Below, piece by piece: positions 16,963 to 53,940 of a stretch of 64,000 nt of DNA. A program made the position numbers and the translations under genes. This stretch comes from Pseudoselenomonas ruminantium (GTDB lineage: Bacteria; Bacillota; Negativicutes; Selenomonadales; Selenomonadaceae): positions 1 through 64,000 of the forward strand of contig NZ_FRBC01000003.1 in NCBI RefSeq assembly GCF_900142515.1, in the 5' to 3' direction. Below the pieces are notes generated by a model. That model was not told the DNA's origin. It saw only the letters and a list, made by a program, of their open reading frames with translations, and did no database searches. Position 1 is the stretch's first letter; every line of letters starts with the position of its first letter.

Positions 16963-17525
16963 GCTTTTTCTCCCCCCAAAATCATCCATGCCTGTTGATA
17001 AAGAGCGGTATCATCCTTAAACACGCCATTACACTCCGAAGTCACCGTGCGGGTACCATGTGCCAGATCCCCCCGCATAGTCATGCAGAGCTGCTGCGCC
17101 TCTACGACCACCAGCACAGCACGGGCACCTAGATCCCGCTTCACTGCTGCTGCGATCTGCGCCGTGAGACGTTCCTGCAACTGGGGCTGATGGGAGAGCT
17201 GTTCCACAAGCTTCGAGAACTTGCTGAACCCTGCCACCCGTCCGTTTTCTGGCAGATAGGCAATACTGACCTCGCCAAAGAAAGGTACCAGATGATGCTC
17301 ACACATCGAATAAAAAGGCACATGACGCACAGCCACGATGCCATCAGAACCGGCATCGAAGGTCTCCCCCCAAAGTCCTGCCGTATCCTTGTTGATTCCA
17401 TTGAACAGGAATTCATACATCTGTGCCACCCGCTCAGGGGTTTTTTCCATGCCCCGTGCCTCTATATCCACACCTACGGCTTCCAAGAACTCACGCATGG
17501 CCTTTATCGCCCGTTCATTTGCCAA
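16959..17525 (-). CDS. folE: GTP cyclohydrolase I
   Basis: First enzyme of folate synthesis (GTP to 7,8-dihydroneopterin triphosphate). 188 residues. Zinc and active-site segment VPFYSMCEHHLVPFFGEVSI, then RVAGFSKFSKLVEQLSHQPQ and LCMTMRGDLAHGTRTVTSEC complete the family pattern. Translation most likely starts at a TTG (17525), with GGGGAGG 7-8 nt upstream; no ATG fits the ribosome site. It is the first gene of the folE-folP-folB-folK/A-ung operon, with a promoter at 17552-17580. Confidence 0.96.
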   Translation of the reverse strand: MANERAIKAMREFLEAVGVDIEARGMEKTPERVAQMYEFLFNGINKDTAGLWGETFDAGSDGIVAVRHVPFYSMCEHHLVPFFGEVSIAYLPENGRVAGFSKFSKLVEQLSHQPQLQERLTAQIAAAVKRDLGARAVLVVVEAQQLCMTMRGDLAHGTRTVTSECNGVFKDDTALYQQAWMILGGEKA

Positions 17526-17551
17526 AAAAAAACCTCCCCATCTGCTTACTG

Positions 17552-17580
17552 ACTATAATATACTACACTTTCCCCAGCAA
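17552..17580 (-). promoter_or_regulatory. Promoter of the folate operon
   Basis: Minus-strand TTGCTG (17575-17580), 17-nt spacer, TATAGT (17552-17557), ending about 27 bp before the folE start codon. The match is moderate, but it is the only candidate between the terminator at 17597-17622 and folE. Confidence 0.5.
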
Positions 17581-17596
17581 GAAAAGGCAAACAGAC

Positions 17597-17622
17597 AAAA
17601 GACCGGTCAAAACTGACCGGTC
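17597..17622 (-). terminator. Terminator of the acyltransferase gene
   Basis: Two GACCGGTC blocks (17601-17608 and 17615-17622) pair into an 8-bp stem; on the minus strand the hairpin is followed by TTTTGTCTGTTT. It lies 8 bp after the acyltransferase stop codon and separates it from folE. Confidence 0.75.
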
Positions 17623-17629
17623 AAACCAA

Positions 17630-19462
17630 TTATTTTTCCAATGTCTGCACAATCGTAGCCTTCACTAATTGTGCAAAAGCCCTGGCACCCTCGTTATTGG
17701 GATGGACGCCGTCCTCCACCAGCCACTCAGGATGCTGGCTGGCAGCACTGCACCAGTCCACAATGGTCACATTGGGATGCGCTTTCACCAGCTCTGCCAG
17801 ATAGGCATTATTGGTATTCTGCCATTTCAGATGCGGTGCATAGGTATTGACCCAGAATATATGCCGCTGCGGCCCCAAAGCATCCAACAGCCGCTTCGTC
17901 TGGACTTCATAACGCTCACCGCCGGCAATCGGGCCATTGGTTCCCAGAGCAATGACCACAATATCCCCGATTTTCCCCTGGGCGACCCAGGCCTGAGCCA
18001 CATCAGCGCCGCCACTTACATAGCGGGATACCTCTGCATCGATCTGACAATCAGGCAAAGCTGCCCGCAATTCACTGCCTGCGCCCAGCATCACCGAGTC
18101 ACCGATGCAGGCAATGCCATTCAGGTTGACCGCCTTTTTCACCACAGATTCTGCTGCCGGATCTGCTGCCGCAGGTGGTTCCTCCACAGGTTTATCCTGT
18201 ACCTGATCCAGCTGCTCCGCTTCATGAGCCAGCCGCTGCGCCAGCTCCTGCTGGATATTGGCACGCGCATCAGCAGACATGGCAATCCCATAACAGCCAC
18301 TTCCCATAAAGAACATGCCCGCTAACGACAGGCAGGCCAGCACCATTACCCTGGCCGCTTGGACACCAGACCCACAGGCAAAGAAATGCGGGCGCCGCAG
18401 GAAAGCTGCCAGGCGTTCTCCCCACAAAGTCAACAAGAAAATAGCCAGCAATTGGAGGCCATAATGCCAAACTTCGCTTGTATAACCGAACTGTTCGCTG
18501 AGGTAAATCACAGGATACTGCCAGAGAAAAATCCCATAGCTGTGCTGGCCCAACCACTTGCAGACACCATTATCCAGCCAGGCCCCCACCAGCAAGCGGT
18601 CATCCGTCGCCAGCTTCATAAGCAGCATGAAGACAAAAGTCATCGCCAGCATGCCGCCCTGATAAACCAGCGGATTGCCGCCATCCAGCCGGCAATACAC
18701 CACCACGGTTGCCACCAGGGCAACTGCCGACAACAGATATTTCCCCCACGAGCTCCCGGCCGGAACGCGTCCTCCGAACGAAGATAACGGACCGTTTGCC
18801 GCCACGGCCAGCCCCAGGCCCGCGCCCCAGAGGAGCGCACAGATCCGGGTATCCGTGCCATAGTAGAGCCGGGTGATATCGCCGCCCTGCTGATAAAGCC
18901 ACGGCATCAGGCCAGAAGTCCCTGCCGCCAATAAGAACAACAGGCCAATGGCCCAGCGCCGCCCCAAGATTTCCCAGAAGGCAACGACCACAGCAAAAAG
19001 CACTGGCCACAGCAGATAATACTGCAATTCCACCCCCAGGAACCACAAATGGGCAAAGGGCGAAGCATTCAGCAGACGCGTAAAATAATCCATGCTCTGC
19101 CCGATCTGCCACCAGTTATTATACCCCAACAAGATGGAAAGCACTTCCGGCCGCACCGCTGCTACCGCATTGGGCACCAGCCAGTAAAGCACGCCGATAC
19201 TGCTGAGCAGCATGATCAGCAGTTCCGGATAGATCCGCCTGACACGCTTGCCATAATAGGAAAGCATGCCAAACCGCCCATCCCGCCAGGCATTGAAACT
19301 CGTATAAGACAACAAGAATCCCGTCAGCACAAAAAACAAAACCACGCCCATATAACCACCTGGAAGCATATCCGGCACCATATGGAACGCCGTGACCCCG
19401 GCAATCGCCAGCGCACGCAAACCATCCAGACCTCGTAACTGGGGCCGTTTCCCCAAATTCAT
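17630..19462 (-). CDS. OafA/OatA-type membrane O-acyltransferase with SGNH domain
   Basis: Transfers acyl (usually acetyl) groups to cell-surface glycans. About 610 residues: an acyltransferase-3 membrane part (about 1-370, start LRGLDGLRALAIAGVTAFH with the conserved His, around ten hydrophobic helices), a linker rich in Pro/Ala/Glu, and an extracytoplasmic SGNH hydrolase-like domain with GDSVMLGAG (~454), LGTNGP and the catalytic DGVHPN near the end. This architecture is that of peptidoglycan or LPS O-acetyltransferases such as OatA/OafA; which polymer is modified is not readable. Start ATG at 19462 has GGGAGG 9 nt upstream, in a sequence that can pair with an upstream arm (see 19469-19538). 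Confidence 0.88.
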   Translation of the reverse strand: MNLGKRPQLRGLDGLRALAIAGVTAFHMVPDMLPGGYMGVVLFFVLTGFLLSYTSFNAWRDGRFGMLSYYGKRVRRIYPELLIMLLSSIGVLYWLVPNAVAAVRPEVLSILLGYNNWWQIGQSMDYFTRLLNASPFAHLWFLGVELQYYLLWPVLFAVVVAFWEILGRRWAIGLLFLLAAGTSGLMPWLYQQGGDITRLYYGTDTRICALLWGAGLGLAVAANGPLSSFGGRVPAGSSWGKYLLSAVALVATVVVYCRLDGGNPLVYQGGMLAMTFVFMLLMKLATDDRLLVGAWLDNGVCKWLGQHSYGIFLWQYPVIYLSEQFGYTSEVWHYGLQLLAIFLLTLWGERLAAFLRRPHFFACGSGVQAARVMVLACLSLAGMFFMGSGCYGIAMSADARANIQQELAQRLAHEAEQLDQVQDKPVEEPPAAADPAAESVVKKAVNLNGIACIGDSVMLGAGSELRAALPDCQIDAEVSRYVSGGADVAQAWVAQGKIGDIVVIALGTNGPIAGGERYEVQTKRLLDALGPQRHIFWVNTYAPHLKWQNTNNAYLAELVKAHPNVTIVDWCSAASQHPEWLVEDGVHPNNEGARAFAQLVKATIVQTLEK

Positions 19463-43099: not shown

Positions 43100-44527
43100 T
43101 CAAATACCCTCGCCGTCTATGCCGCTGAATACTTCCCGCTCCGTGCGTTCCAGACGGACGATTTCGCCGTCCTTGACCACCACGATGAGTTCGCCGTTCT
43201 GGGGCAGGTGGTTCATGATATAGCGCATGGCTTTCTGGGAGAATTCTCCCTGCTGTTCCTTCTCGGCCCCGAGCACGATGCCTCCACCGGCCACATCATA
43301 GCCGTCCACCAATACGAAGCGGCCCGTAGCCTGATAGTCCTGGAAGCGGTCAAAGGCGATTTCCTCTTTGAGTTTCAGGATGACTTCAGCCACATCATTC
43401 AGGCGGATTTCCTTGACGGTTTCCGCCGCCCGCTGGTCAAGGCTAGAGGCATCGATAATCTTTTCAATGCTCTCCACCTGAGCTTCCACTTCCTGCGTGC
43501 CCAATTTCAGCTTATAGCGGCGATTGAGCTTCAGGGAATTCTTGCCCAGCCAGAACAGGGACACCCGCAGGCGCTTGCCCGTCAAGGGCGGCGTATCGGC
43601 AGCCCGGGTGATGATCTCGCCCCGCTGGTTGAAGAACTCGTCGGCTACCTGAATGCCCGTGGAAGCGCCGGCACTGGCCTCTTCCACCTTGTCCTTGGAC
43701 TGCCAGTACGGGAACGCCACGACCTTCGTCTTGCGGCCGCCGGGATAGATGGCAATCTCGTCTCCAACTGCCAGCTGACCAGCTTCGATACGCCCCGCAA
43801 TGATGCGGCGGGAATCGAATTTATAGACATCCTGAATGGGCAGGCGCAGGGCCTTGCTCACAGCCGCCTGTTCCCCTTCCAAAAGGTCGAGGGCTTCGAG
43901 CAGGGTTTCGCCCTTGTACCATTCCATATGCTCCGAATGGCTGGCGATATTGTCCCCCTGTAACCCCGAGACAGGAATATATTTCAGCGGATAAACACCC
44001 AGTTCCGCCAAGAATGCGCCCATCTCATGCTTGATTTTCACGAAGGAGGTTTCAGCGTAGCCTGCCAAGTCCATCTTATTGACCAGCACATATACCTTCT
44101 TGATGCCCAAAAGGCTCAACATATAGGCATGGCGGCGGCTCTGCTCCTGCACGCCCTGCTTGCCGTCCACAATCAGGAGTGCCGCTTCAGCACCGGCGGC
44201 GCCAGAAATCATGTTCTTCAAAAATTCCTTGTGGCCCGGCGCGTCGATGATCACATAATCCCGCTTGGCTGTGGAGAACTGGATGCGGGTGGTGTCGATG
44301 GTGATGCCCTGCTGCTGTTCCTCCTCAAAGGCATCCAGAAGATAGGCGTACTCGAAGGGCTTGCCCGTGTCGTGAGCAATCTTGGCCACCTTATCGATGG
44401 CCCCCTGGGGCAGGGAATCCGTGTCGTAGAGGAGCCTGCCGATAACGGTGGACTTGCCGTGGTCCACATGGCCCACCACCACGATATTCAAACCGGCTTC
44501 TTTATGATTATGTTCTGTATTGCTCAT
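43100..44527 (-). CDS. cysN: Sulfate adenylyltransferase GTPase subunit with C-terminal DUF2292-like domain
   Basis: Drives ATP sulfurylase (with CysD) by GTP hydrolysis. GTPase motifs: GHVDHGKST, DTTRIQFS, DAPGHKEF, NKMD; domains 2 and 3 follow to about residue 425. The last ~50 residues (SQKAMRYIMNHLPQNGEL, VVVKDGEIVRLERTERE, ending DGEGI) are an added domain of the DUF2292/YezD type, matching both halves of the small protein at 53547-53876. CysN alone normally ends before this. Start ATG shares a base with the cysD stop. Confidence 0.93.
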   Translation of the reverse strand: MSNTEHNHKEAGLNIVVVGHVDHGKSTVIGRLLYDTDSLPQGAIDKVAKIAHDTGKPFEYAYLLDAFEEEQQQGITIDTTRIQFSTAKRDYVIIDAPGHKEFLKNMISGAAGAEAALLIVDGKQGVQEQSRRHAYMLSLLGIKKVYVLVNKMDLAGYAETSFVKIKHEMGAFLAELGVYPLKYIPVSGLQGDNIASHSEHMEWYKGETLLEALDLLEGEQAAVSKALRLPIQDVYKFDSRRIIAGRIEAGQLAVGDEIAIYPGGRKTKVVAFPYWQSKDKVEEASAGASTGIQVADEFFNQRGEIITRAADTPPLTGKRLRVSLFWLGKNSLKLNRRYKLKLGTQEVEAQVESIEKIIDASSLDQRAAETVKEIRLNDVAEVILKLKEEIAFDRFQDYQATGRFVLVDGYDVAGGGIVLGAEKEQQGEFSQKAMRYIMNHLPQNGELIVVVKDGEIVRLERTEREVFSGIDGEGI

Positions 44528-45345
44528 TACATATACCCCTCTTTCCGCAGTTTCTGCATGGCGTAGGAATCCTCCTGATCCTGCTTGCGCCCTGCCCGCT
44601 CACTGGTGGTGGTGTGCTTCAGTTCCTCAATAATTTTGTCCAGCGTGTCCGCATTGGACTTAATCTGGCCCGTGCAGCAGGCGCAGCCCAACGAGCGGTA
44701 GCGCTTGCCGTTCTTGGCAAAGTACAAATCGATGATGGGAATGTTCTCCCGGCGTATGTACTCCCAGATATCCAGCTCATTCCAGGCCAGCAGGGGATGG
44801 ACGCGGATATGGTGGCCTTTCGGGAAATCCGTCTTGAACTGGTCCCAAAGCTCCGGCGGCTGGTTGGCATAATCCCAGGCATCATCCTCCTTGCGCTCAC
44901 TGAAGACACGCTCCTTGGAACGGGAACCTTCCTCATCCCGTCGCACGCCCACAATCAAGCCGTCAAAGCCGTATTCCTTCACCACCTGCTTGAGCCCCTC
45001 GGTCTTCAAGGCCTGGCAGCAGGCCAACCTGCCCTTGTCCGGGCCCATGCCGGCATCGATGGCCGCCTGATTGGTATGAACAATCAAATCCAGATTGAGT
45101 TCCTTAGCCACCCGGTCACGATACTCAATCATCGCGGGAATCTTGTGCTTCGTATCCACATGGATGAAGGGAAACGGGCAATGGCCGTAAAAGGCCTTCT
45201 TCGCCAGCCACAGCAGGACGGTGGAGTCCTTGCCGATGGACCAGAGCATGCCCAACTTCCCTAATTTCTTATAAGCCTCCCGCAGGATATAGATGCTTTC
45301 GGCTTCCAATCTGTCTAACTTATCTGCTGTTTCTGTCTGCGCCAT
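44527..45345 (-). CDS. cysD: Sulfate adenylyltransferase catalytic subunit
   Basis: PP-loop ATP sulfurylase subunit, 272 residues. SIGKDSTVLLWLAKKAF is the PP-loop; VHTNQAAIDAGMGPD, GVRRDEEGSRSKERVFSER and PLLAWNELDIWEYIRRENI follow the family. It makes APS from sulfate and ATP with CysN. It lies between aprB and cysN in the sulfate operon; the ATG comes 21 bp after the aprB stop. Confidence 0.96.
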   Translation of the reverse strand: MAQTETADKLDRLEAESIYILREAYKKLGKLGMLWSIGKDSTVLLWLAKKAFYGHCPFPFIHVDTKHKIPAMIEYRDRVAKELNLDLIVHTNQAAIDAGMGPDKGRLACCQALKTEGLKQVVKEYGFDGLIVGVRRDEEGSRSKERVFSERKEDDAWDYANQPPELWDQFKTDFPKGHHIRVHPLLAWNELDIWEYIRRENIPIIDLYFAKNGKRYRSLGCACCTGQIKSNADTLDKIIEELKHTTTSERAGRKQDQEDSYAMQKLRKEGYM

Positions 45346-45366: not shown

Positions 45367-45678
45367 TCAATATTTATTGGCTTCCTGCTTGACCGTGACA
45401 ATCTCATCAGAGCTGCCATCCGGCCAAAGCATCTGCCATTTGATTTCTCGTTCATTGTTTTGGGCATAGAGCCTGCCGCCACTGCCGCCAAGGTCCGCCG
45501 CCAGATAATAATAGATAGCCTGACGGGGGCACTCCTTGACGCAGGCGGTGCAGCCCCAGCAATCCCGCACATCGCGAATATGGGCTTTTCCTTCCCACAA
45601 CTTTAGCAAGTTGCCGGGGCAGGCCTCCGTGCAGAGGCCGCAGCCTACGCACTTGTCTTTTTCAATGGCGATACTCAT
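45367..45678 (-). CDS. aprB: Ferredoxin-like APS reductase beta subunit
   Basis: 103 residues with two 4Fe-4S clusters, CVGCGLCTEACPGN and CWGCTACVKECPRQ, and a short C-terminal tail (GGRLYAQNNEREIKWQM). It is the electron-transfer partner of AprA; dissimilatory AprB is longer (~150), so this is the short type of assimilatory clusters. The start overlaps the aprA stop by 4 bp. Confidence 0.88.
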   Translation of the reverse strand: MSIAIEKDKCVGCGLCTEACPGNLLKLWEGKAHIRDVRDCWGCTACVKECPRQAIYYYLAADLGGSGGRLYAQNNEREIKWQMLWPDGSSDEIVTVKQEANKY

Positions 45679-47354
45679 CCCACCGCCTCCTTGCTTTCAG
45701 ACTCAACCAAAGGACGGCGGATAATCTTCACTTCGCCTTGTTCCAGACGGGAATTGATGAAAAGCTGATATTCCTCCCGCCGCTCCGGGTAGTCCAGATG
45801 CTCCCCAAAAGCATGCCAGCGGGTTTCCTGCCGGGCTGCCAGATGGGCAATCAAGGCCTTGCAGACCAGCAGCCGCTCCCGCAGTTCAAAAATCTTCAAG
45901 AGGCCATAGAAATCGGCCGCCCGCAGCTTGTCGCTGAGTTTTGTCAATCGCTCAATATGCTTGCGGGCGATACGCAGGGAGCTTTCACTGTAGCCATAAT
46001 GACTCTTGATGCCTCCGGCGTATTCATCCATGGCCTGCTGCATGGCTTCTTCGAGACTTTCCACGGTGTAGTTTCCTTCTGAACTTCCCTCCATGAAAGT
46101 CTCCACTTGCTTGATGATATTTTCCTGCACCTCTGCGTCAATCCCGCTCTTACCCGCCTGCCGGGCAAAGGCTGCTGCCGCGCGGGCGGCGATTTCCCCT
46201 TCCACAAAGGAGCCGGTCACGTATTTCTGCGGACAACCTCCGGCCACATCCCCGGCAGCAAAGAGCCCCGGCAGAGTCGTTGACCGGTCATTGCCGATCC
46301 AGTAGCCGCTGGCAGTATGACCTCCCACCACATAGGGCTCAGAACCTTCGATTTCCACATCGTAATCCCGGGGATTCAGGCCGCTCTCCCGCCAAAAGAG
46401 GGTTTGAGCCGGGGCCATATTGAGATAGGCCCGCTCCAAAGCCGCCGCCTGTTCCAGCGTGATGCCCTTGGTGCCCAGATAACAGGGCCCATGGCCCGCC
46501 AAGTTTTCCTTGACCACTGCCCAGAGCCGCTCCGCCGTGGTGTTGCCATATTTATCCTGATACTTCTCCCCACGGGAATTCACCTGCGGTGCGCCCACCC
46601 CCTGAGCAATGGTGCCCGTAGGCGCGATGGTGCCCTTACACCTGAGGGCGATAAACCGCATCTCGAAGGTGGTCATCTCCGCCCCGGCCCGCAGGCCCAT
46701 GGCATAGCCCGCTCCGGTATTAAAGGGACTGTACCACATCTTGTGCCGGGAAGTTCCCGGATGGTTGGGCTGGTAAAGCCCCGCTGCTCCGCCCGTGGCA
46801 CAGATAACCGCCCCCGCGCTGATGATGACGGCTTCCTCTTTGGCAAGGTCGATGCCCCAGGCTCCCCTGACCCGGCCATCTTCCACCAGATAGTCCACTA
46901 TATTGATATGGTTCAGCACTTTGACATTTGCCTTGTCCTGTACGGCCTTTGCTAATATCGGCTTGATATTTTCCCCATTTATCTTGATATTGCGCCAGCC
47001 CCGGGAGGCATAGCTGCCATCGGGATTCTTCTGAATCACCAGCCCCAGTTTTTCCAGCTTGGCAGTGACTTCATTGAGCCCCTCACTCATGGAGAGCAAC
47101 AAGTCCTCCCGCACGATGCCCGCCGCATCTTCCTTGGCGTAATCGGCATAATCCTGTGGCGTATGCCCCGGCGTGATATAGGCGTTCAGGGCGTTTACCC
47201 CTGCCGCCAGACAGCCGCTGCGCTTGATATTGGCCTTGTCCGCCAACAGCACGTCCAGCCCCGGATACTCCTCCCCCAGAGTAAGGGCCGCATAACAGCC
47301 TGCCGCTCCACCGCCGATGATCAGGATATCGCTTTGCTCATTTCTGACTTTCAT
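45675..47354 (-). CDS. aprA: FAD-dependent APS reductase alpha subunit
   Basis: About 559-residue flavoprotein of the fumarate reductase/APS reductase family. FAD site: DILIIGGGAAGCYAALTLGE; LFAAGDVAGGCPQKYVTGSF near residue 370 is the second FAD motif. It reduces APS to sulfite plus AMP, taking electrons from AprB. It is about 100 residues shorter than dissimilatory AprA. In a cluster with CysDN and sulfate permease it replaces the thioredoxin-dependent CysH; no cysC or cysH is present. The start at 47354 (MKVRNEQ) fits homologous N-termini, but a 9-nt longer one is possible. Assignment as AprA rather than another FAD reductase rests on context and AprB. Confidence 0.88.
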   Translation of the reverse strand: MKVRNEQSDILIIGGGAAGCYAALTLGEEYPGLDVLLADKANIKRSGCLAAGVNALNAYITPGHTPQDYADYAKEDAAGIVREDLLLSMSEGLNEVTAKLEKLGLVIQKNPDGSYASRGWRNIKINGENIKPILAKAVQDKANVKVLNHINIVDYLVEDGRVRGAWGIDLAKEEAVIISAGAVICATGGAAGLYQPNHPGTSRHKMWYSPFNTGAGYAMGLRAGAEMTTFEMRFIALRCKGTIAPTGTIAQGVGAPQVNSRGEKYQDKYGNTTAERLWAVVKENLAGHGPCYLGTKGITLEQAAALERAYLNMAPAQTLFWRESGLNPRDYDVEIEGSEPYVVGGHTASGYWIGNDRSTTLPGLFAAGDVAGGCPQKYVTGSFVEGEIAARAAAAFARQAGKSGIDAEVQENIIKQVETFMEGSSEGNYTVESLEEAMQQAMDEYAGGIKSHYGYSESSLRIARKHIERLTKLSDKLRAADFYGLLKIFELRERLLVCKALIAHLAARQETRWHAFGEHLDYPERREEYQLFINSRLEQGEVKIIRRPLVESESKEAVG

Positions 47355-47368
47355 TCGCCTCATCTACC

Positions 47369-48439
47369 TTAAATAACTACGGATTCCTTCTGCTTGGCCC
47401 GGTTTTCGATAATCCGGGTCCTGCCTGCTTCCAAACTGTAAATGCGGTGGATAAAGGCCAAAGCCTTGTCCCCGGCCTGCAACGGTGCTTTTTCCAGACT
47501 GCGGTGTGCCCGCAATATCTGCCCCCGCACCTCGATATCCACCGCTACGGAACTGCCCCGGAAGTAGGTAGCCTTCACCGTTCCCCGCTCAGCGCCCAAA
47601 GGCAAGGAAATCTCCTTCTCGTCCTTGGCCAGCTCGATAAACTCAGGACGGATAATGCCCTGATGGCTTCCTCCTTTTTCCTCAGCAGTAAAGCCTTTGA
47701 ACTGGGTATAGTCCTCCACTTTGACGGACTCACCGATAAAATCTGCCACAAAGGGCGTCTGGGGTGCCTGATAGATTTCCAAAGGGCTCCCCGCCTGTTC
47801 GATGCGGCCATTGTTGACGATAATGATCTTATCGGCCACTTCCACCGCCTCGTCCTGGTCATGTGTCACAAAGAGACTCGTGATACCTAAGTTATGGATG
47901 GCCTCCCTGAGCCAGCTGCGCAGTTCCTTGCGGACTTTCGCATCAATGGCGGCAAAGGGCTCATCCAACAATAGCAGGCTCGGGCTCGGTGCCAACGCCC
48001 GGGCAAAGGCCACCCGCTGGCGCTGGCCGCCGGATAGCTGCAAGGGATAGCGCTTGGCCACCTGACTTAGCCCGGTAAGTTCCAGCAGTTCATCGGTACG
48101 AACCTTTATCTTGTGGCTGTCCTCCTTCTGCACCCGCAGGCCGAAGGCGATATTGTCCCGCACCGTCATATGGCGGAACAGGGCATAGTTCTGAAACACG
48201 AAGCCGATGCCCCGCTCCCGGGCGGGCAAATCGTTGACCCGCCGTCCCGCAATCAGGATATCGCCCTTGTCCGGCTTTTCCAGACCTGCCAGCATGCGCA
48301 GCAAGGTGGTCTTGCCGCTGCCCGAAGGCCCCAAGAGTCCTGCCAGTTCCCCCTTGGCCACGCCGAAGCTGGCATCATTTGCGGCCTTGAAGCCGTTAAA
48401 GCTCTTCTCGATATGTTTCAGTTCCACTTCATACTTCAT
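47369..48439 (-). CDS. cysA: Sulfate ABC transporter ATPase
   Basis: 356 residues. ABC motifs: GLLGPSGSGKTTLLRMLAG (Walker A), LSGGQRQRVAFARALAP (signature), LLLDEPFAAIDAKVRKEL (Walker B) and FVTHDQDEAVEVAD (switch His). The C-terminal ~110 residues form a TOBE-like regulatory domain. Powers sulfate/thiosulfate import through CysTW. ATG at 48439 (AAGGAAGG 6 nt upstream) is preferred to one 6 nt earlier; it overlaps the end of cysW by 11 bp. Confidence 0.96.
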   Translation of the reverse strand: MKYEVELKHIEKSFNGFKAANDASFGVAKGELAGLLGPSGSGKTTLLRMLAGLEKPDKGDILIAGRRVNDLPARERGIGFVFQNYALFRHMTVRDNIAFGLRVQKEDSHKIKVRTDELLELTGLSQVAKRYPLQLSGGQRQRVAFARALAPSPSLLLLDEPFAAIDAKVRKELRSWLREAIHNLGITSLFVTHDQDEAVEVADKIIIVNNGRIEQAGSPLEIYQAPQTPFVADFIGESVKVEDYTQFKGFTAEEKGGSHQGIIRPEFIELAKDEKEISLPLGAERGTVKATYFRGSSVAVDIEVRGQILRAHRSLEKAPLQAGDKALAFIHRIYSLEAGRTRIIENRAKQKESVVI

Positions 48440-49304
48440 GGTCATCCTTCCTTTCCATGCGCCATTCCACGAAATTGCGCAGAATCAGTACCAGGACTGC
48501 CAGCCCCACCAGAATGGAGGACACGGCAAAGGCCGCGGTAAAATTGTACTCATTGTAGAGGATTTCGATATGCAAAGGCAGGGTGTTGGTCTTGCCCCGG
48601 ATATGGCCCGAGACTACCGACACGGCCCCGAATTCCCCCATGGCCCGGGCGGTACAGAGGATGATGCCGTACATCAGCCCCCATTTGATATTCGGGAGGG
48701 TTATCTGCCAGAAAATCCGCCAGCCACTAGCCCCCATCAGCGCCGCCGCTTCCTCCTCGTCCCGGCCCTGGCCCTCCATCACGGGAATGATGCTCCGGGC
48801 AATAAAAGGAAGCGTCACAAAGATGGTGGCCAGCACGATACCTGGCACCGCAAAAACCACGGCGATATGATAAGCCTGCAAGGTATCATAGAAGGGACTG
48901 AGCCTGCCAAACAACATGATGAAAAACAAGCCCGCTACTACCGGCGACACCGCAAAAGGCAAATCAATGATGGACCCCAGCAAAGTCTTGCCCCGGAAGT
49001 CAAACTTCGTCAGCAGCCAGGCCGCCGCCAGCCCGAAGATGGTGTTGGACACTACCGAGAGCACCGTGGCCTCAGCCGTCAGCCAGAGGGCCTTGCGGGC
49101 AAAAGGCTCATTGAGAGCCGCAAGATAGGCATTCCAGCCCTTGCCCAGAGCCTCCACCCCGATAAGGATCAGGGGCAGGATCATCATGACCACGAGAAAG
49201 GCTGCGCCCGTCAGGATCAGTGACCACTTGACGATTGTTTCGGTTTTGAGGAATCTGCTCTGGCTACCAGCCACAGGCTTTGCCAATTTTGTCACCGCTT
49301 CCAT
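48429..49304 (-). CDS. cysW: Sulfate ABC transporter permease CysW
   Basis: 291 residues with about six transmembrane helices and the ABC-permease EAA loop DEEEAAALMGASGWRIFWQI. IDLPFAVSPVVAGL is shared with CysT. It forms the membrane channel with CysT. It starts 2 bp after cysT ends. Confidence 0.95.
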   Translation of the reverse strand: MEAVTKLAKPVAGSQSRFLKTETIVKWSLILTGAAFLVVMMILPLILIGVEALGKGWNAYLAALNEPFARKALWLTAEATVLSVVSNTIFGLAAAWLLTKFDFRGKTLLGSIIDLPFAVSPVVAGLFFIMLFGRLSPFYDTLQAYHIAVVFAVPGIVLATIFVTLPFIARSIIPVMEGQGRDEEEAAALMGASGWRIFWQITLPNIKWGLMYGIILCTARAMGEFGAVSVVSGHIRGKTNTLPLHIEILYNEYNFTAAFAVSSILVGLAVLVLILRNFVEWRMERKDDHEV

Positions 49305-49306
49305 CC

Positions 49307-50131
49307 TTACGCCCCCTGTCTTTGCAAACGATAACGCTGATAGCCGTTGAGAACCAAAAGCACCAACAACGACATGGCCAGCATCACGATGGCCACGGCA
49401 GCAGCCGCCTGATAGTCAAACTGCTCCAGCTTGGTCATGATGAGCAACGGCGCAATCTCCGTTTCAAAAGGCACATTGCCCGCAATGAAGACCACGCTGC
49501 CATACTCCCCAATGCCCCGGGAAAAGGCCAGGGCAAAACCGCTGACGAGCGGCGTGATGAGCTCCGGCAAAATTACCTTCCGGAAGGTCAGGAATTTTCC
49601 TGCCCCCAAAAGCGCCGCCGCTTCTTCCAAAGAGCCATCCAAATCTTTCAGCACCGGCTGGACGCTGCGGGCCACAAAAGGTATGCCCACAAAGACCAAG
49701 GCAATCGTGATGCCCACTGCGGAAAAGGCCGTCGGTATGCCCAGCTGATAGAAGAATCTTCCCAGCCAGCCTGTCTCCACATAAAGGGTGGTCAGGGCTA
49801 TGCCTGCCACCGCCGTGGGCAGGGCAAAGGGCAAATCAATCAGCCCGTCCATCAGTCGCTTGCCGGGAAAATCGTAACGCACCAGCACCCAAGCCAACAG
49901 CAGTCCGAAGACCGCATTGATGATTGCCGCCGCCAGGGCACAGCCGAAACTGAGCAGATAGCCATGCACCATGCGGTAATCCGTCACCTGCCGAATGAAA
50001 TCCTGCCCGCTCATATCGCTGGCATAGAGCACGAAAGCACTCAGCGGCAGCAGCACCAGCAAAGACAGATAGAAAAACACGATTCCCATGGTCAGATGGC
50101 CACCTGGTATAACCTGCCCAGTCCTGCCCAT
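49307..50131 (-). CDS. cysT: Sulfate ABC transporter permease CysT
   Basis: 274 residues, about six helices. DLPFALPTAVAGIALTTLY and the EAA loop EEAAALLGAGKFLTFRKVIL identify the CysT (CysU) permease. It lies 21 bp after the sulfate-binding protein gene and 2 bp before cysW. Confidence 0.95.
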   Translation of the reverse strand: MGRTGQVIPGGHLTMGIVFFYLSLLVLLPLSAFVLYASDMSGQDFIRQVTDYRMVHGYLLSFGCALAAAIINAVFGLLLAWVLVRYDFPGKRLMDGLIDLPFALPTAVAGIALTTLYVETGWLGRFFYQLGIPTAFSAVGITIALVFVGIPFVARSVQPVLKDLDGSLEEAAALLGAGKFLTFRKVILPELITPLVSGFALAFSRGIGEYGSVVFIAGNVPFETEIAPLLIMTKLEQFDYQAAAAVAIVMLAMSLLVLLVLNGYQRYRLQRQGA

Positions 50132-50152: not shown

Positions 50153-51190
50153 TTACTTCTTGTAAATCTGGTCAAAGGTGCCGCCATCAGCAAAATGTTC
50201 CTTCTGGGCCTTCGTCCAGCCGCCGAACTTGTCGTCAATGGTAAAGAGCTTCAGTTCCGGGAACTGCTGCTTATACTTCTCGAAGACAGCCTTGTTGCGG
50301 GGACGATAGAAGTTCTTGGCGGCAATCTCCTGGCCTTCCGGCGAATAGAGATAATTGATGTAGGCTTCGGCCACCTTGCGGGTGCCCTTCTTGTCCACTA
50401 CCTTGTCCACGATAGCCACAGACGGCTCGGCCAGAATGGAGATGGACGGTGCCACAATCTCGTAATCCGGGGAATCCTTCAGGGTAATCAGTGCTTCATT
50501 TTCCCAAGCAATCAGCACATCGCCTTGACCGCGCTGCACAAAGCTGGTGGTGGCGCCGCGAGCGCCGGAATCAAGGGCCACGACGTTCTGGAAGAGCTTC
50601 TTGACGAAAGCCTTTACCTGCCCTTCATCGCCATTGAACTTCTCCCGGGCGTATTCCCAGGCCGCCAGATAATTCCAGCGAGCACCGCCGGAGGTCTTGG
50701 GGTTCGGCGTGACGATCTTCACATCATCACGGGCGAGGTCATCCCAGTCATGGATGTTCTTGGGATTGCCCTTGCGCACGAGGAATACGATGGTTGACGT
50801 ATAGGGCGCAGAATTGTCTGGGAACTTCTTGAGCCAGTCCTTTTCGATAAGGCCAGCTTGAGCGATTTCGTCCACATCATAGGCCAAAGCCAGCGTCACC
50901 ACATCGGCTTCCAGTCCCTCAATCACGGAGCGGGCCTGCTTGCCGGAACCGCCGTTGGATTGACGGAACTCGATATCCTGACCGCTGGCCTTCTTCCATT
51001 CTCCCGTGAATACCTGATTGAACTCCGCATAGAGTTCCCGGGTGGGATCATAGGACACATTCAGGAACTCACTGGCCGCCTTGCCGTCTTCCCCACCGGC
51101 TGCCGACTCATCCCCGCAGCCTGCAAACAGGCCTGCGGCCGCCACAAGCCCCAAAGCTAAACTCGCTGCTTTCCACCACTTCTTCATCAT
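50153..51190 (-). CDS. sbp: Sulfate-binding lipoprotein
   Basis: 345-residue solute-binding protein of the sulfate/thiosulfate ABC transporter. A lipobox LFAGCGDES near residue 25 anchors it in the cytoplasmic membrane. [40 protein letters not shown] and [20 protein letters not shown] are the family's ligand-binding segments. It is the first gene of the nine-gene operon. Start may be 51190 or the adjacent ATG (51187). Confidence 0.95.
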
Positions 51191-51235
51191 GAATTCCCCC
51201 TCAAAAATAGATATGATTGCTTATTTATAAAACAA

Positions 51236-51287
51236 GAGGTTCCACAAACAGCCCTGCAGGGCAATCTGTGGAACCTCCAATTTTTTT
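51236..51287 (-). promoter_or_regulatory. Leader hairpin of the sulfate operon, possible attenuator
   Basis: GAGGTTCCACA (51236-51246) pairs with TGTGGAACCTC (51267-51277) around an inner palindrome GCCCTGCAGGGC (51251-51262). It lies in the ~155-nt leader. On the minus strand it is followed by TTGTTTTAT, weak for termination; on the plus strand by seven T. It matches no riboswitch family I recognise. Confidence 0.5.
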
Positions 51288-51354
51288 GGTCAGTTCACTG
51301 AACCATGTGCATATGTAACACTTCTTCGCTATGCTTGCGTTGATGATGACATTT

Positions 51355-51393
51355 ATGTTACACTATTACACCTATTATGTCAATAGGTGTAAT
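51355..51393 (-). promoter_or_regulatory. Promoter and palindromic operator of the sulfate operon
   Basis: Minus-strand TTGACA (51378-51383), 17 nt, TAACAT (51355-51360). The -35 sits inside a perfect inverted repeat ATTACACCTAT-N7-ATAGGTGTAAT (51365-51393). The same arrangement is found before the tandem-DUF2292 gene at 53902-53940. A repressor bound here would occlude the -35 region. Confidence 0.82.
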
Positions 51394-51472
51394 AAATAAT
51401 CACAGAAATACTTTTCATACTATCATTACATTCCCCTTGGTTAGCAGAATGGATAATTTTCCTCCGACACTT

Positions 51473-52756
51473 TTAACGCTTCATGTTTATGGCTGTTTCC
51501 GTCAGTTCGTCACTAACAGTTATTGTTTTAGCATTAGACTGGAAACCACGCTGTGTTATAATCATATCCGCAAATTCATTTGCCACATTCACATTCGACA
51601 TCTCCAAAGCCCCTGGTGTCAGGACAGTACCAAACTCTCCTGCTTTAATCGTTAGAGGCTTACCTGAATTGGCACTTTCCTGATAAAGACTCTTACCAGT
51701 CTTTAAAAGACCTGCCGAATTGCTAAAATGTGCCAATGCCACCTGCGCCTCAGAACGACGCGTACCATCCGTGTATATGCCCGTAATTATTCCGGAGGAA
51801 TCAATTTGAATTTCTTTTAACGTAGCATCACTACCACCGATACTTTCCGTTAAAGGTAAGTCCAATGTAAACGTAATATCATTTTTTCCATCCGTTATAG
51901 TAATTGTATTACTACCAGCCACAGCTCCACCGGGTTTTAGAACCCAATTTGATTTATACTTATCACTATCCATACTAATGGCTTTATATGTTTTACCATC
52001 AATTGTGATAGTGAGCGGATATTGCTTCGTTACACTCCCCATGGTCAAAATATCGTATGTTTGAAAATATACATCTGTTCCCTTCGCAACTTCAAATGTA
52101 GCTGCTGGTATAATTTGGACCGTTGCACCTTTGCCATCTTGGTCTACAATATCTGCAGTCTGGGCACCAAGTAGAACATCATCTTTAAAACTCCACTTTT
52201 TTCCATTGTCAGGAATCCCACTTATACGAAATTCTTTCCCTCCAAATTCGACACTAAAAGACTCATCCGCAAGCGGCTGACCTATTGTTATTTTTATATT
52301 CTCTATTCCACCAGTCGTGTCAATTACACCTTTGCTTGCCATCCATCCCTGCACAAAATGACCACTACCCGGCAGTACATAGTTTCCTGTCGCATCAAGG
52401 TCGAAGACACCGTCACGGGTGTAATAAGTTTCATTTCCTCCCCTTACTATAAACAAGCCATCCCCCGAAAGGCACAGGTCAGTGTTTTTACCGGTCATCA
52501 TAGGCGCACCATCTTTGAAAATAAGGTCTGTACTTGCTGTTTGGGTTCCCAGACCAATCTGAGTGGGATTTGTACTTCCTACGTTTCCATTAGAAGCGGC
52601 GGCACCTTTAATATTTTGTGATAGAATATCGGCAAATGTTGTGCGGCTGGATTTGTAACCTACTGTATTAACATTGGAAATATTATTACCAACAGTATCC
52701 ATTTTGCTTTGATGATTTTTAAGTCCTGACGCCCCAGTATACAACGAACGAATCAT
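51473..52756 (-). CDS. flgE: Flagellar hook protein (FlgE family)
   Basis: 427 residues with the flagellar rod/hook marks at both ends: YTGASGLKNHQSKMDTVGNN at the N-terminus and ANEFADMIITQRGFQSNAKT at the C-terminus; the middle is a Thr/Asp/Gly-rich beta domain. Hook proteins polymerise outside the cell after export through the flagellar machinery. No other flagellar gene is in the window. The gene is visibly richer in A/T than its neighbours and sits between two sulfur-regulated units, suggesting an insertion. Ribosome site GGGAGG 8 nt before the ATG. Confidence 0.9.
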   Translation of the reverse strand: MIRSLYTGASGLKNHQSKMDTVGNNISNVNTVGYKSSRTTFADILSQNIKGAAASNGNVGSTNPTQIGLGTQTASTDLIFKDGAPMMTGKNTDLCLSGDGLFIVRGGNETYYTRDGVFDLDATGNYVLPGSGHFVQGWMASKGVIDTTGGIENIKITIGQPLADESFSVEFGGKEFRISGIPDNGKKWSFKDDVLLGAQTADIVDQDGKGATVQIIPAATFEVAKGTDVYFQTYDILTMGSVTKQYPLTITIDGKTYKAISMDSDKYKSNWVLKPGGAVAGSNTITITDGKNDITFTLDLPLTESIGGSDATLKEIQIDSSGIITGIYTDGTRRSEAQVALAHFSNSAGLLKTGKSLYQESANSGKPLTIKAGEFGTVLTPGALEMSNVNVANEFADMIITQRGFQSNAKTITVSDELTETAINMKR

Positions 52757-53009
52757 AATAACATTCCTCCCTGAATTATCGAACCACTATATGTTCATCG
52801 CTTGTCATCAGATTTACTGTTACCAATAGGCGTAAATAATGCCATCGTATAATTTACGCTCCCAAAATCCTTGATTTTCACGCATGCCACTCCATTTTTG
52901 GCACACTTCGACAAGGTTCCCCCATATCCCTGCTGAAAATCATTATTTTTTACATAAGCCAATCCATGTATTGTTATCGAAAGGGAAGTATCCCTTAGAA
53001 AATTTATTC

Positions 53010-53038
53010 TTGACACAGTCCTTGGGCTCATGTATCTT
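53010..53038 (+). promoter_or_regulatory. Consensus promoter with no protein gene behind it
   Basis: Plus-strand TTGACA (53010-53015), 17 nt, TATCTT (53033-53038). Only a 15-codon ORF (MVTTSGCSHPFRWGQ) and no ribosome site follow, so the product may be RNA. Confidence 0.5.
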
Positions 53039-53044
53039 AAAGGC

Positions 53045-53200
53045 AAGAGAATATATGGTTACTACGAGTGGCTGTAGCCATCCCTTCCGTTGGGGACAAT
53101 AAAGATACAGCGGAGTTGACCGTCGGTGAAGGTAGGGAAATTTACCGCTGCTCGAAGATAGGGAGAATTGTGTTGGCAAATCTCCCTATCTTCTTAAGAA
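53045..53200 (+). ncRNA. Candidate small RNA
   Basis: About 155 nt downstream of a near-consensus promoter, with local pairing potential (TGGCTGTAGCCA; CCCTTCC with GGTAGGG) and a strong 13-bp hairpin at 53154-53193 near the end. The hairpin has no U tract; the next terminator is at 53221-53255. I could not match it to 6S, SRP, tmRNA, RNase P or a known riboswitch. Confidence 0.3.
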
Positions 53201-53220
53201 AAAGAACAAGCATCATAGCA

Positions 53221-53255
53221 AAAAAGTGCTGAGATTGTAAAGTCTCAGCACTTTT
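53221..53255. terminator. Terminator in the flgE/DUF2292 interval
   Basis: AAAAGTGCTGAGA, 8-nt loop, TCTCAGCACTTTT. On the minus strand six T follow (for the DUF2292 transcript); on the plus strand four T (for the possible small RNA). Confidence 0.8.
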
Positions 53256-53273
53256 GACGTATAAACATTTTCC

Positions 53274-53408
53274 TCAAATAAAATACTCGATGGTTTTCTC
53301 TGGCGTAAGTTTGGTGCGGGTGTCAAAGAGCAGCACGGCTTCCCGCTCATCCATAGCCCCCAGCGCATAGGGGCCGTCGTCCTCGCGGTTGAAGCAGTAA
53401 AAGGGCAT
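53274..53408 (-). pseudogene. 44-codon coding remnant or small gene
   Basis: A minus-strand frame from ATG 53408 to TGA 53274 reads MPFYCFNREDDGPYALGAMD and continues to KLTPEKTIEYFI. It looks like the real tail of a protein (protein-like composition, codon use like neighbours), but it has no good ribosome site and the frame is closed upstream. Likely a gene fragment; a genuine small protein cannot be excluded. Confidence 0.3.
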
Positions 53409-53461
53409 CCACCATCAAGCTGTTCTCCCCCATATACACCGACCTGCCGGATAGATTTCGC

Positions 53462-53536
53462 TTATTTTTCCACCTGCCCCAGATAGCTCAGATCATAATT
53501 CACCTGCAAATCCCGAAGCCTCCGTTGATTACGGTC
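53462..53536 (-). pseudogene. Short C-terminal coding remnant
   Basis: In-frame minus-strand fragment TDRNQRRLRDLQVNYDLSYL-GQVEK then TAA at 53462, with a stop (TAG) directly upstream and no start. It looks like the C-terminus of a lost protein. Family not recognised; it and the 53274-53408 fragment lie between the DUF2292 gene and the hook gene. Confidence 0.3.
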
Positions 53537-53546
53537 AGTCTATCTA

Positions 53547-53876
53547 TCAAATACCATCCCCATCCATAAACCGCTGTTTTTCCAGACGGTCGAAATGGGT
53601 GATTTCTCCCTTTTTCACCACGATGGTAATCCGGCCATAATAGAGACTTTTCAATTCCCGCTCAATCAGCTTGCGGATATTTTCCTCCATTATCGGGGAC
53701 CAGACCTGAGGTTTTGGCACCCCCTGCCAGGGATGCACCCGCATCTTTTCCGTGCGCTCTACCTGAATCAGCACACCATTCTGGGCCACTAATACCACTT
53801 CTCCAAAATACACCCCTCGCAGGACTTCCAAAATATAATGCAGAACCTCCGCTGGAATATCTTTCATAAGCCTCAT
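53547..53876 (-). CDS. Small protein with two DUF2292 (YezD-like) domains
   Basis: 109 residues made of two copies of one ~37-residue unit: EVLHYILEVLRGVYFGEVVL to VERTEKMRV, and NIRKLIERELKSLYYGRITI to DRLEKQRF. The ending MDGDGI matches the IDGEGI ending of CysN in this window, whose C-terminal extension is the same domain. Function is unknown; the domain occurs around sulfur assimilation, and here it shares the sulfate operon's promoter/operator. The start at 53876 (GGGGAG 4 nt upstream) or an ATG 9 nt later is possible. Confidence 0.82.
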   Translation of the reverse strand: MRLMKDIPAEVLHYILEVLRGVYFGEVVLVAQNGVLIQVERTEKMRVHPWQGVPKPQVWSPIMEENIRKLIERELKSLYYGRITIVVKKGEITHFDRLEKQRFMDGDGI

Positions 53877-53901
53877 GCACTCCCCTAAATAACATGCCCC
53901 T

Positions 53902-53940
53902 ATGTTACAACATTACACCCATTATGTCAATAGGTGTAAC
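53902..53940 (-). promoter_or_regulatory. Promoter and operator of the tandem-DUF2292 gene, twin of the sulfate operon's
   Basis: Minus-strand TTGACA (53925-53930), 17 nt, TAACAT (53902-53907). The inverted repeat ATTACACCCAT-N7-ATAGGTGTAAC (53912-53940) differs from the one at 51365-51393 at two outer bases, with the same centre TATGTCA and the same position relative to the -35. Confidence 0.8.

Follow-up and report, generated by a model that had tools for sequence, protein, structure and literature searches.

A 64,000-nucleotide stretch of the Pseudoselenomonas ruminantium genome (contig NZ_FRBC01000003.1, positions 1 to 64,000; here, the window) carries on its minus strand an operon for sulfate transport and reduction and, farther upstream, a gene for a tandem DUF2292 protein. 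Both are preceded by the same type of operator-promoter, and between the sulfate promoter and its operon lies an RNA leader that is well supported, by comparison of related sequences, as a terminator/antiterminator switch. Computation supports the operator, the regulon, both alternative covarying helices of the leader, and an association of the leader with DUF2292; repression, antitermination itself, the identity of both proteins, and the signal are inferred. Control in two layers, with Rrf2-type repression of transcription initiation and DUF2292-dependent antitermination, is probable on this evidence. The first-pass annotation of the window had proposed that one kind of operator places both units in a sulfur regulon, an idea that proved mostly right; it overlooked the leader, and the leader switch with its tie to DUF2292 is the larger find.

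The two operators are 29-bp palindromes that are identical at 27 of 29 positions, and each spans the −35 element of a minus-strand promoter reading TTGACA-N17-TAACAT. Matches to ATTACACCTAT-N7-ATAGGTGTAAT were found at 51365 to 51393 (no mismatches) and at 53912 to 53940 (two mismatches), exactly where the earlier annotation had placed them, and the pattern had no match across 100 dinucleotide shuffles of the window. Operator-promoter 1 (51355 to 51393; −35 TTGACA at 51383 to 51378 and −10 TAACAT at 51360 to 51355) stands before the minus-strand sulfate operon, and operator-promoter 2 (53902 to 53940; −35 TTGACA at 53930 to 53925 and −10 TAACAT at 53907 to 53902) stands before the minus-strand tandem DUF2292 gene.

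The 3.12-Mb genome that contains the window was searched with a pattern for the whole promoter, and seven sites were found, every one with zero mismatches. The genes behind each site were taken from gene lists, with ten proteins assigned by Pfam and several names given by eye. Unit 1 is the sulfate operon (sbp-cysT-cysW-cysA-aprA-aprB-cysD-cysN), and unit 2 is the tandem DUF2292 gene. Unit 3 encodes an M20 hydrolase followed by metQNI (a Met-type transporter, by eye) and a pyridoxal phosphate (PLP) enzyme; unit 4 encodes a URO-D-type methyltransferase, a corrinoid protein, an MtmB-family protein, and RACo; unit 5 (G000:C49, L050:2071-4767) encodes an esterase, an ATP-grasp-type protein, and a third protein; unit 6 encodes an S-adenosylmethionine (SAM) methyltransferase, a PLP enzyme, CysK, and nitrogenase-like proteins (Pfam NifH, Oxidored_nitro, and radical SAM); and unit 7 encodes a MetY-type enzyme and CysK. 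Operator and leader precede all of these except the DUF2292 gene, the sole operator unit (one of seven) without a leader. Six of the seven units fit sulfur scavenging and the role of the esterase/ATP-grasp unit cannot be judged; none of the operators was found before plainly unrelated genes. The evidence supports an operator common to these units and a regulon for sulfur, whose members would be repressed and expressed together. A single DNA operator as the whole of the regulation was rejected because the leader accompanies six of the seven units, a layer missing from the earlier proposal. An eighth, weaker site (four mismatches, L050:8472-8494) precedes an MnmA-like gene without a leader and lies outside the count of seven; it has counterparts in L037, L038, and L043. 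In one relative (L054), a site also stands before ssuABC-like genes. The esterase/ATP-grasp unit is a candidate for a new sulfur-scavenging step, and nitrogenase-like D and H proteins and a NifB-like protein (methylthio-alkane reductase type; G000:C49, L050:11333-16444) lie behind this operator and leader.

Between most sites and the start codon, the transcript reads AACUGAC, a short hairpin, AGGUU, and then a terminator stem that begins with that same AGGUU. In the sulfate operon, the leader element occupies 51229 to 51297 (minus strand; 70.4 bits to model R1). Its antiterminator hairpin, AACU-GA-CCAA-loop-UUGG-A-GGUU, lies at 51272 to 51295, and its intrinsic terminator, GAGGUUCC...GGAACCUC followed by a U tract, lies at 51229 to 51277; the 131-nt leader folds with −47.5 kcal/mol (z −4.78). 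The general form of the antiterminator is AACU-GA-NNNN-loop-NNNN-A-GGUU, with a GA/A internal loop: AACU pairs with GGUU and the next four bases pair above them, 24 nt in all, and the terminator needs the same GGUU, so that the two helices are mutually exclusive. The internal loop is flanked by nearly invariant CUGA and AGG, and the letters of the loop and upper stem vary. Six leaders in the genome, one in each operator unit except the DUF2292 unit, match R1 with E values under 1e-9, and 55 of 189 family genomes have a match at an E value of ≤0.01.

Both helices are conserved with covariation. In an alignment of 29 leaders, the antiterminator was 99.6% paired with three of eight pairs doubly changed, and the terminator was 99.4% paired with 5 of 11 pairs doubly changed. 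In 32 leaders from across the phylum (sense sequences chosen by hand from the matches), 95.3% of antiterminator cells were paired and double changes occurred in six of the eight pairs; the values for the terminator were 93.0% and six of nine pairs. Cell counts and covariation scores exceeded those of all 500 shuffles in both alignments, although relatedness of the sequences inflates both measures. A further alignment had been selected by pairing and was excluded as pairing evidence. R1 does not include the AACU/GGUU pairs of the lower stem. For this stem, 102 model matches were reduced to 85 by removal of overlapping, mostly antisense, matches and then to 67 distinct 5' parts, a set that keeps a few doubtful rows (L137, L144, and L139:1289). 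Outside the genus, the lower stem shows A-U to G-C swaps: among the 43 distinct 5' parts found there, the pair at positions 4 and 28 was A-U in 18, G-C in 19, G-U in 3, and something else in 3. The two variable lower-stem pairs together were paired in 81 of 86 cells, compared with a shuffled mean of 71.8, and none of 2,000 shuffles reached as high. Column 28 is shared with the terminator, yet only the antiterminator accounts for the change from A to G on the opposite strand. Two mutually exclusive helices, a terminator with a U tract, and covariation in both make up a terminator/antiterminator attenuator, and antitermination itself would be its function.

The leader appears to be undescribed. 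At the leaders, Rfam had no family over its gathering threshold and gave only chance-level matches, so a known riboswitch was rejected as their identity. An ANTAR target RNA consists of two hexaloop hairpins with fixed loop letters; judged by eye, and with no search made for ANTAR proteins, the leader has one hairpin whose loop varies in length and letters. In one locus (L264:298-465, minus strand), a cysK-like gene is followed by two near-identical tandem leaders with 105 bases between them; the overlapping locus L288 places a metK-type gene (by eye) next after them.

The tandem DUF2292 protein, a candidate reader of the leader, has 109 amino acids (53547 to 53876, minus strand) and scores 65.7 bits against PF10055 (cutoff, 22). 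The association of its family with the leader was examined in 30 loci that had been collected from 299 phylum genomes by a DUF2292 search blind to the leader; 29 of these loci lie outside the family, and some share a genus or family with one another. R1 had a match at an E value of ≤1 in 19 of the 30 loci. In 14 (L244, L245, L246, L247, L248, L249, L251, L252, L253, L255, L256, L258, L259, and L260), the match lay at most 120 nt downstream on the same strand, and in L246 and L249 it overlapped the 3' end of the DUF2292 reading frame. Several of these 14 matches were weak (E values up to 0.24) but had a core like GCUGACCAG..CUGGAGGC. No match at an E value of ≤1 was found in 30 Rrf2 control loci of similar total length, all of which are from the genus and therefore control for chance but not for every composition. 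By eye, the genes that follow the DUF2292-leader pair include those for ATP sulfurylase-type, CysH-type, CysK, SsuA/B/C-type, NifB-like, and corrinoid proteins. Of 398 phylum genomes, 60 had a leader by model R2 at an E value of ≤0.01; the leader has a wider distribution than the operator. Within the family, at an E value of ≤0.001, R2 found leaders in 52 of 83 genomes with DUF2292 and in 7 of 106 without it; the Fisher value of 3e-17 for this association is overstated because the genomes are related.

The position of the DUF2292 gene also bears on its role. In several genera, the leader follows directly after the DUF2292 stop codon, and in the window a degenerate copy occupies this place (53479 to 53542, minus strand; 9.6 bits, E value of 0.05 for the 811 bases searched), with the hairpin mostly or partly kept and a good terminator lost. 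This copy is perhaps the relic of a DUF2292-leader-target layout. A SAM riboswitch was found 5' of DUF2292 in 2 of 26 scanned DUF2292 loci (L244:1745-1850, minus strand, and L247:1235-1351, plus strand), each time with the leader following, an order of SAM riboswitch, DUF2292, and leader that amounts to two RNA switches in series. A gene that has no leader of its own in the P. ruminantium genome and that lies between a SAM riboswitch and a leader in L244 and L247 has the place of a trans-acting factor that is made first. The 3' end of some DUF2292 genes resembles the hairpin by eye. The predicted fold of the protein is alpha-beta-beta repeated twice, with a mean pLDDT (predicted local distance difference test score) of 85.5.

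From the association of its gene with leaders, we rate the chance that DUF2292 reads the leader RNA as about even. Several results count against this role or against parts of the larger proposal. Of the family genomes with DUF2292, 31 of 83 show no leader, and 7 of the 59 leader genomes show no DUF2292. Outside the family, 14 of 40 DUF2292 genomes were not among the R2 leader matches and the other 26 were (counts that assume all 40 to have been in the draw searched with R2), and several of the R2 loci that were read precede genes without a plain tie to sulfur. The fold model had no Foldseek match at an E value of ≤0.001, realignment of 996 Foldseek-ranked chains gave none with a VIA Z of ≥5, and a sequence search of the PDB gave matches at chance level only. 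As for the RNA, the number of doubly changed pairs was reached by 81 (antiterminator) and 104 (terminator) of 500 shuffles for the 29 leaders and by 6 and 384, respectively, of 500 for the 32 leaders.

The genomes in which leader and DUF2292 occur apart, together with the lack of a clear fold or sequence match, would suit a leader that is indeed a switch but is read by another RNA-binding protein, DUF2292 being a frequent neighbor with some other task in sulfur metabolism. We consider this unlikely, if deserving of serious weight, in view of the leaders lying within 120 nt downstream in 14 of 30 leader-blind loci, of a layout like that of hutP before the hut terminator, and of the DUF2292 gene of P. 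ruminantium being the one unit of seven that has the operator but no leader. A leader that senses a small molecule or RNA directly, as a small riboswitch without a protein, is less probable again. The near-invariant CUGA and AGG around the internal loop could form a pocket, and clostridial sulfur genes are described as often being under S-box or T-box leaders (PMC2940859); however, conservation covers a hairpin of only about 24 nt, the letters of its loop and upper stem vary, and no Rfam family reached the gathering threshold. A very improbable reading is that each leader simply terminates the gene upstream of it and that the leaders resemble one another through common descent only. Many do stand directly after the DUF2292 stop codon, an ordinary place for a terminator, but six in the P. 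ruminantium genome lie 5' in their units, each downstream of a promoter, and a second, mutually exclusive helix with covariation of its own would be superfluous in a plain terminator.

For the protein at the operator, an Rrf2-family regulator is the best candidate, with a likelihood on the sequence evidence a little better than even. Rrf2 proteins are present in all 22 genomes of the genus, and one type (MISTRGRYAL...; G000:C17:33973-34365 in the P. ruminantium genome) is found in all 12 genomes with operator sites but is absent from the 10 that lack them. Sites and a close Rrf2 protein (over 200 bits) occur together in four of six genomes in genus g22. The Rrf2 gene adjoins a cysK-type gene in seven genomes (G004, G009, G010, G011, G012, G013, and G017). 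Upstream of it, an inverted repeat, CCTATT...AATAGG, is perfect in 7 of 12 genomes, in two of them as CCCATT...AATGGG. The protein scores 110 bits against PF02082 (cutoff, 30) and 109 bits against TIGR00738 (cutoff, 73.3), falls below the cutoff of the NCBIfam IscR model, and reaches 81.3 bits against the NCBIfam CymR equivalog (cutoff, 195). By these scores it would be classed as CymR-like and is not filed as CymR; the earlier statement that no named regulator such as CymR can be assigned still holds, none being certain.

A protein of another family at the operator is a fair possibility, though we lean away from it. The tree of another Rrf2 protein separates the 12 and the 10 genomes at one branch (support, 92), so that the split reflects one event and not twelve; the pattern was accordingly rejected as strong proof. 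Outside the genus, Rrf2 and sites do not always coincide: two g22 genomes (G168 and G169) have sites and no Rrf2 protein above 57% identity, and four genomes (G029, G032, G143, and G144) have an Rrf2 protein of 69 to 76% identity and no site. The repeat before the Rrf2 gene carries a mismatch in 5 of 12 genomes. It also has a longer spacer than the operator and a right arm that overlaps the TATAAT −10 box, which makes it weak evidence of autoregulation. Against a binder of another family stand the cysK-type neighbor, the less firm operator half-site repeats before Rrf2 genes, and the reported precedent of Bacillus CymR, an Rrf2 protein that works with CysK in controlling cysteine genes (PMC2869319, PMC3828012). 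One genome (G005) has a second Rrf2 copy with an operator-like site upstream (four mismatches). In L107, a second Rrf2-type gene (17414-17872, plus strand) has CCTATTGGTATAATAGG before its start, operator-like but overlapping a TATAAT box; after it comes a gene that, by eye, encodes a cystathionine-type PLP enzyme.

The operator was also compared across relatives. Exact matches to the operator pattern came from nine stretches in the genome collection (eight of Selenomonas ruminantium or Selenomonas sp. and one from an Anaerovibrio metagenome-assembled genome), and the whole-promoter pattern matched 23 of 189 family genomes, compared with one occurrence of a reversed control pattern (in G034). 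Among 51 distinct sites, the best-kept part was (C)CTATTGACATNATNGG-TGTAATNNTGTAACAT, which may also be written CCTATTGACATNATNGG then TGTAATNNTGTAACAT; the sites had been picked by two patterns, so the core columns are conserved partly by choice, and the −10 region and a CATC near +1 lie outside both patterns. Beyond CCTA, conservation of the left arm is partial (for example, 20 of the 51 sites have C at −4 and 42 have A at −5), and the entire left arm of the 29-bp palindrome was therefore rejected as essential. Of 38 stretches upstream of leaders outside the operator group, 5 (L122, L124, L133, L134, and L135) have a TTGACA center between CATA and TATG arms, compared with 0.04 expected in shuffles, which points to a similarly shaped operator with a different half-site. 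Against this, the strict arm test, applied to 82 distinct upstream stretches, was passed by only 16 of 44 operator-group promoters and had been devised after the sequences had been seen. A lone operator-leader on a short contig (G038:C75, L091) of a genome from another genus, in which DUF2292 was not detected, may be a stray Selenomonas contig.

Together, these elements suggest a mechanism. A dimeric repressor, most likely a CymR-like Rrf2 protein, would bind the palindrome over the −35 element and, while sulfur is plentiful, keep transcription from starting. Of the seven transcripts, six would begin with the leader, whose default fold would be the intrinsic terminator; the 24-nt hairpin, by taking over the 5' strand of the terminator, would serve as antiterminator. 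DUF2292, made from the same operator without a leader, would bind and stabilize this hairpin, so that read-through into the transport and reduction genes would occur only after derepression and build-up of DUF2292, a coherent feed-forward gate. On a broader and tentative reading, for which we put the chance just short of even, DUF2292 (YezD-type) would be a new family of RNA-binding antiterminators that acts at a 24-nt hairpin near GCUGA-CCAG-ACAA-CUGG-A-GGC before sulfur-scavenging genes across much of the phylum. It would form a second, feed-forward layer of the starvation response over a first layer that is lineage specific, an Rrf2-type operator in Selenomonas and a SAM riboswitch elsewhere.

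The sulfate operon itself (all minus strand) begins with sbp, for the sulfate ATP-binding cassette transporter substrate-binding protein (50153 to 51190; NF008022, 522.5 bits; cutoff, 288), followed by the sulfate permease genes cysT (49307 to 50131; TIGR02139, over cutoff) and cysW (48429 to 49304; TIGR02140, over cutoff) and the transporter ATPase gene cysA (47369 to 48445; TIGR00968, 343.6 bits; cutoff, 342.75). Next come an aprA-like gene for adenylylsulfate reductase alpha (45675 to 47363; NF005331, 859.1 bits; cutoff, 557) and an aprB-like ferredoxin gene (45367 to 45678), which is named from its position beside aprA (47.5 bits to the aprB model, under the cutoff of 135.65). Genes for the small and large subunits of sulfate adenylyltransferase, cysD (44527 to 45345; NF003587, 381.6 bits; cutoff, 195) and cysN (43100 to 44527; TIGR02034, 344 bits; cutoff, 336.1), complete the operon. 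At about 53270 to 53395 (minus strand) lies the remnant of a reading frame that resembles, by eye, the C-terminal end of a protein in G002 (L058:10547-11164) whose gene adjoins the sbp operator there. This suggests a rearrangement; a flagellar hook-type gene (51473 to 52756) now lies between the two operators.

If correct, the proposal would assign a first function to a widespread protein family, would add a cis-regulatory RNA missing from Rfam, and would explain how uptake of sulfate, sulfonate, methionine, and methylated sulfur (nitrogenase-like) is gated in many anaerobes. Being small, the leader switch is also portable, and in many genomes genes of unknown function can be picked out by its consensus as candidates for a role in sulfur metabolism. 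A search of open-licence papers for DUF2292/COG5466/YezD, the leader, and sulfur antitermination returned nothing on this system.

Parts of the system resemble known ones. In its nitrogenase-like, NifB-like, and corrinoid methyltransferase members, the regulon is similar to sulfur scavenging that involves methylthio-alkane reductase and type I MGC clusters; the passages of PMC10418091 that were consulted place MarHDK-like genes and methionine transporters near such clusters and describe neither the operator nor the leader. CymR of Bacillus and Staphylococcus is likewise an Rrf2 protein with a sulfur/cysteine regulon, whereas the candidate here, with its cysK-type neighbor in seven genomes, falls under the NCBIfam CymR cutoff and is known from sequence and gene neighborhood. 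The S-box (SAM) riboswitch and cysteine T-box of Firmicutes control premature termination at the same kinds of genes, but the leader has no Rfam match, and SAM riboswitches were found upstream of DUF2292 (L244 and L247), not at the leader. The antiterminators bound by LicT and SacY (RAT, ribonucleic antiterminator) are also short hairpins that contain an asymmetric internal loop and cannot form together with the terminator; the leader has another consensus and precedes sulfur genes, not sugar genes. In the hut operon, the gene for a small protein, hutP, immediately precedes a terminator leader through which antitermination controls the genes of one pathway, a layout like that of DUF2292 and its leader. 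The sequence and fold searches showed no relation between HutP and DUF2292 and exclude none, and the RNA here is one short hairpin. Protein-dependent antitermination is control of a known kind, in which the leader RNA, and DUF2292 if confirmed, would be new.

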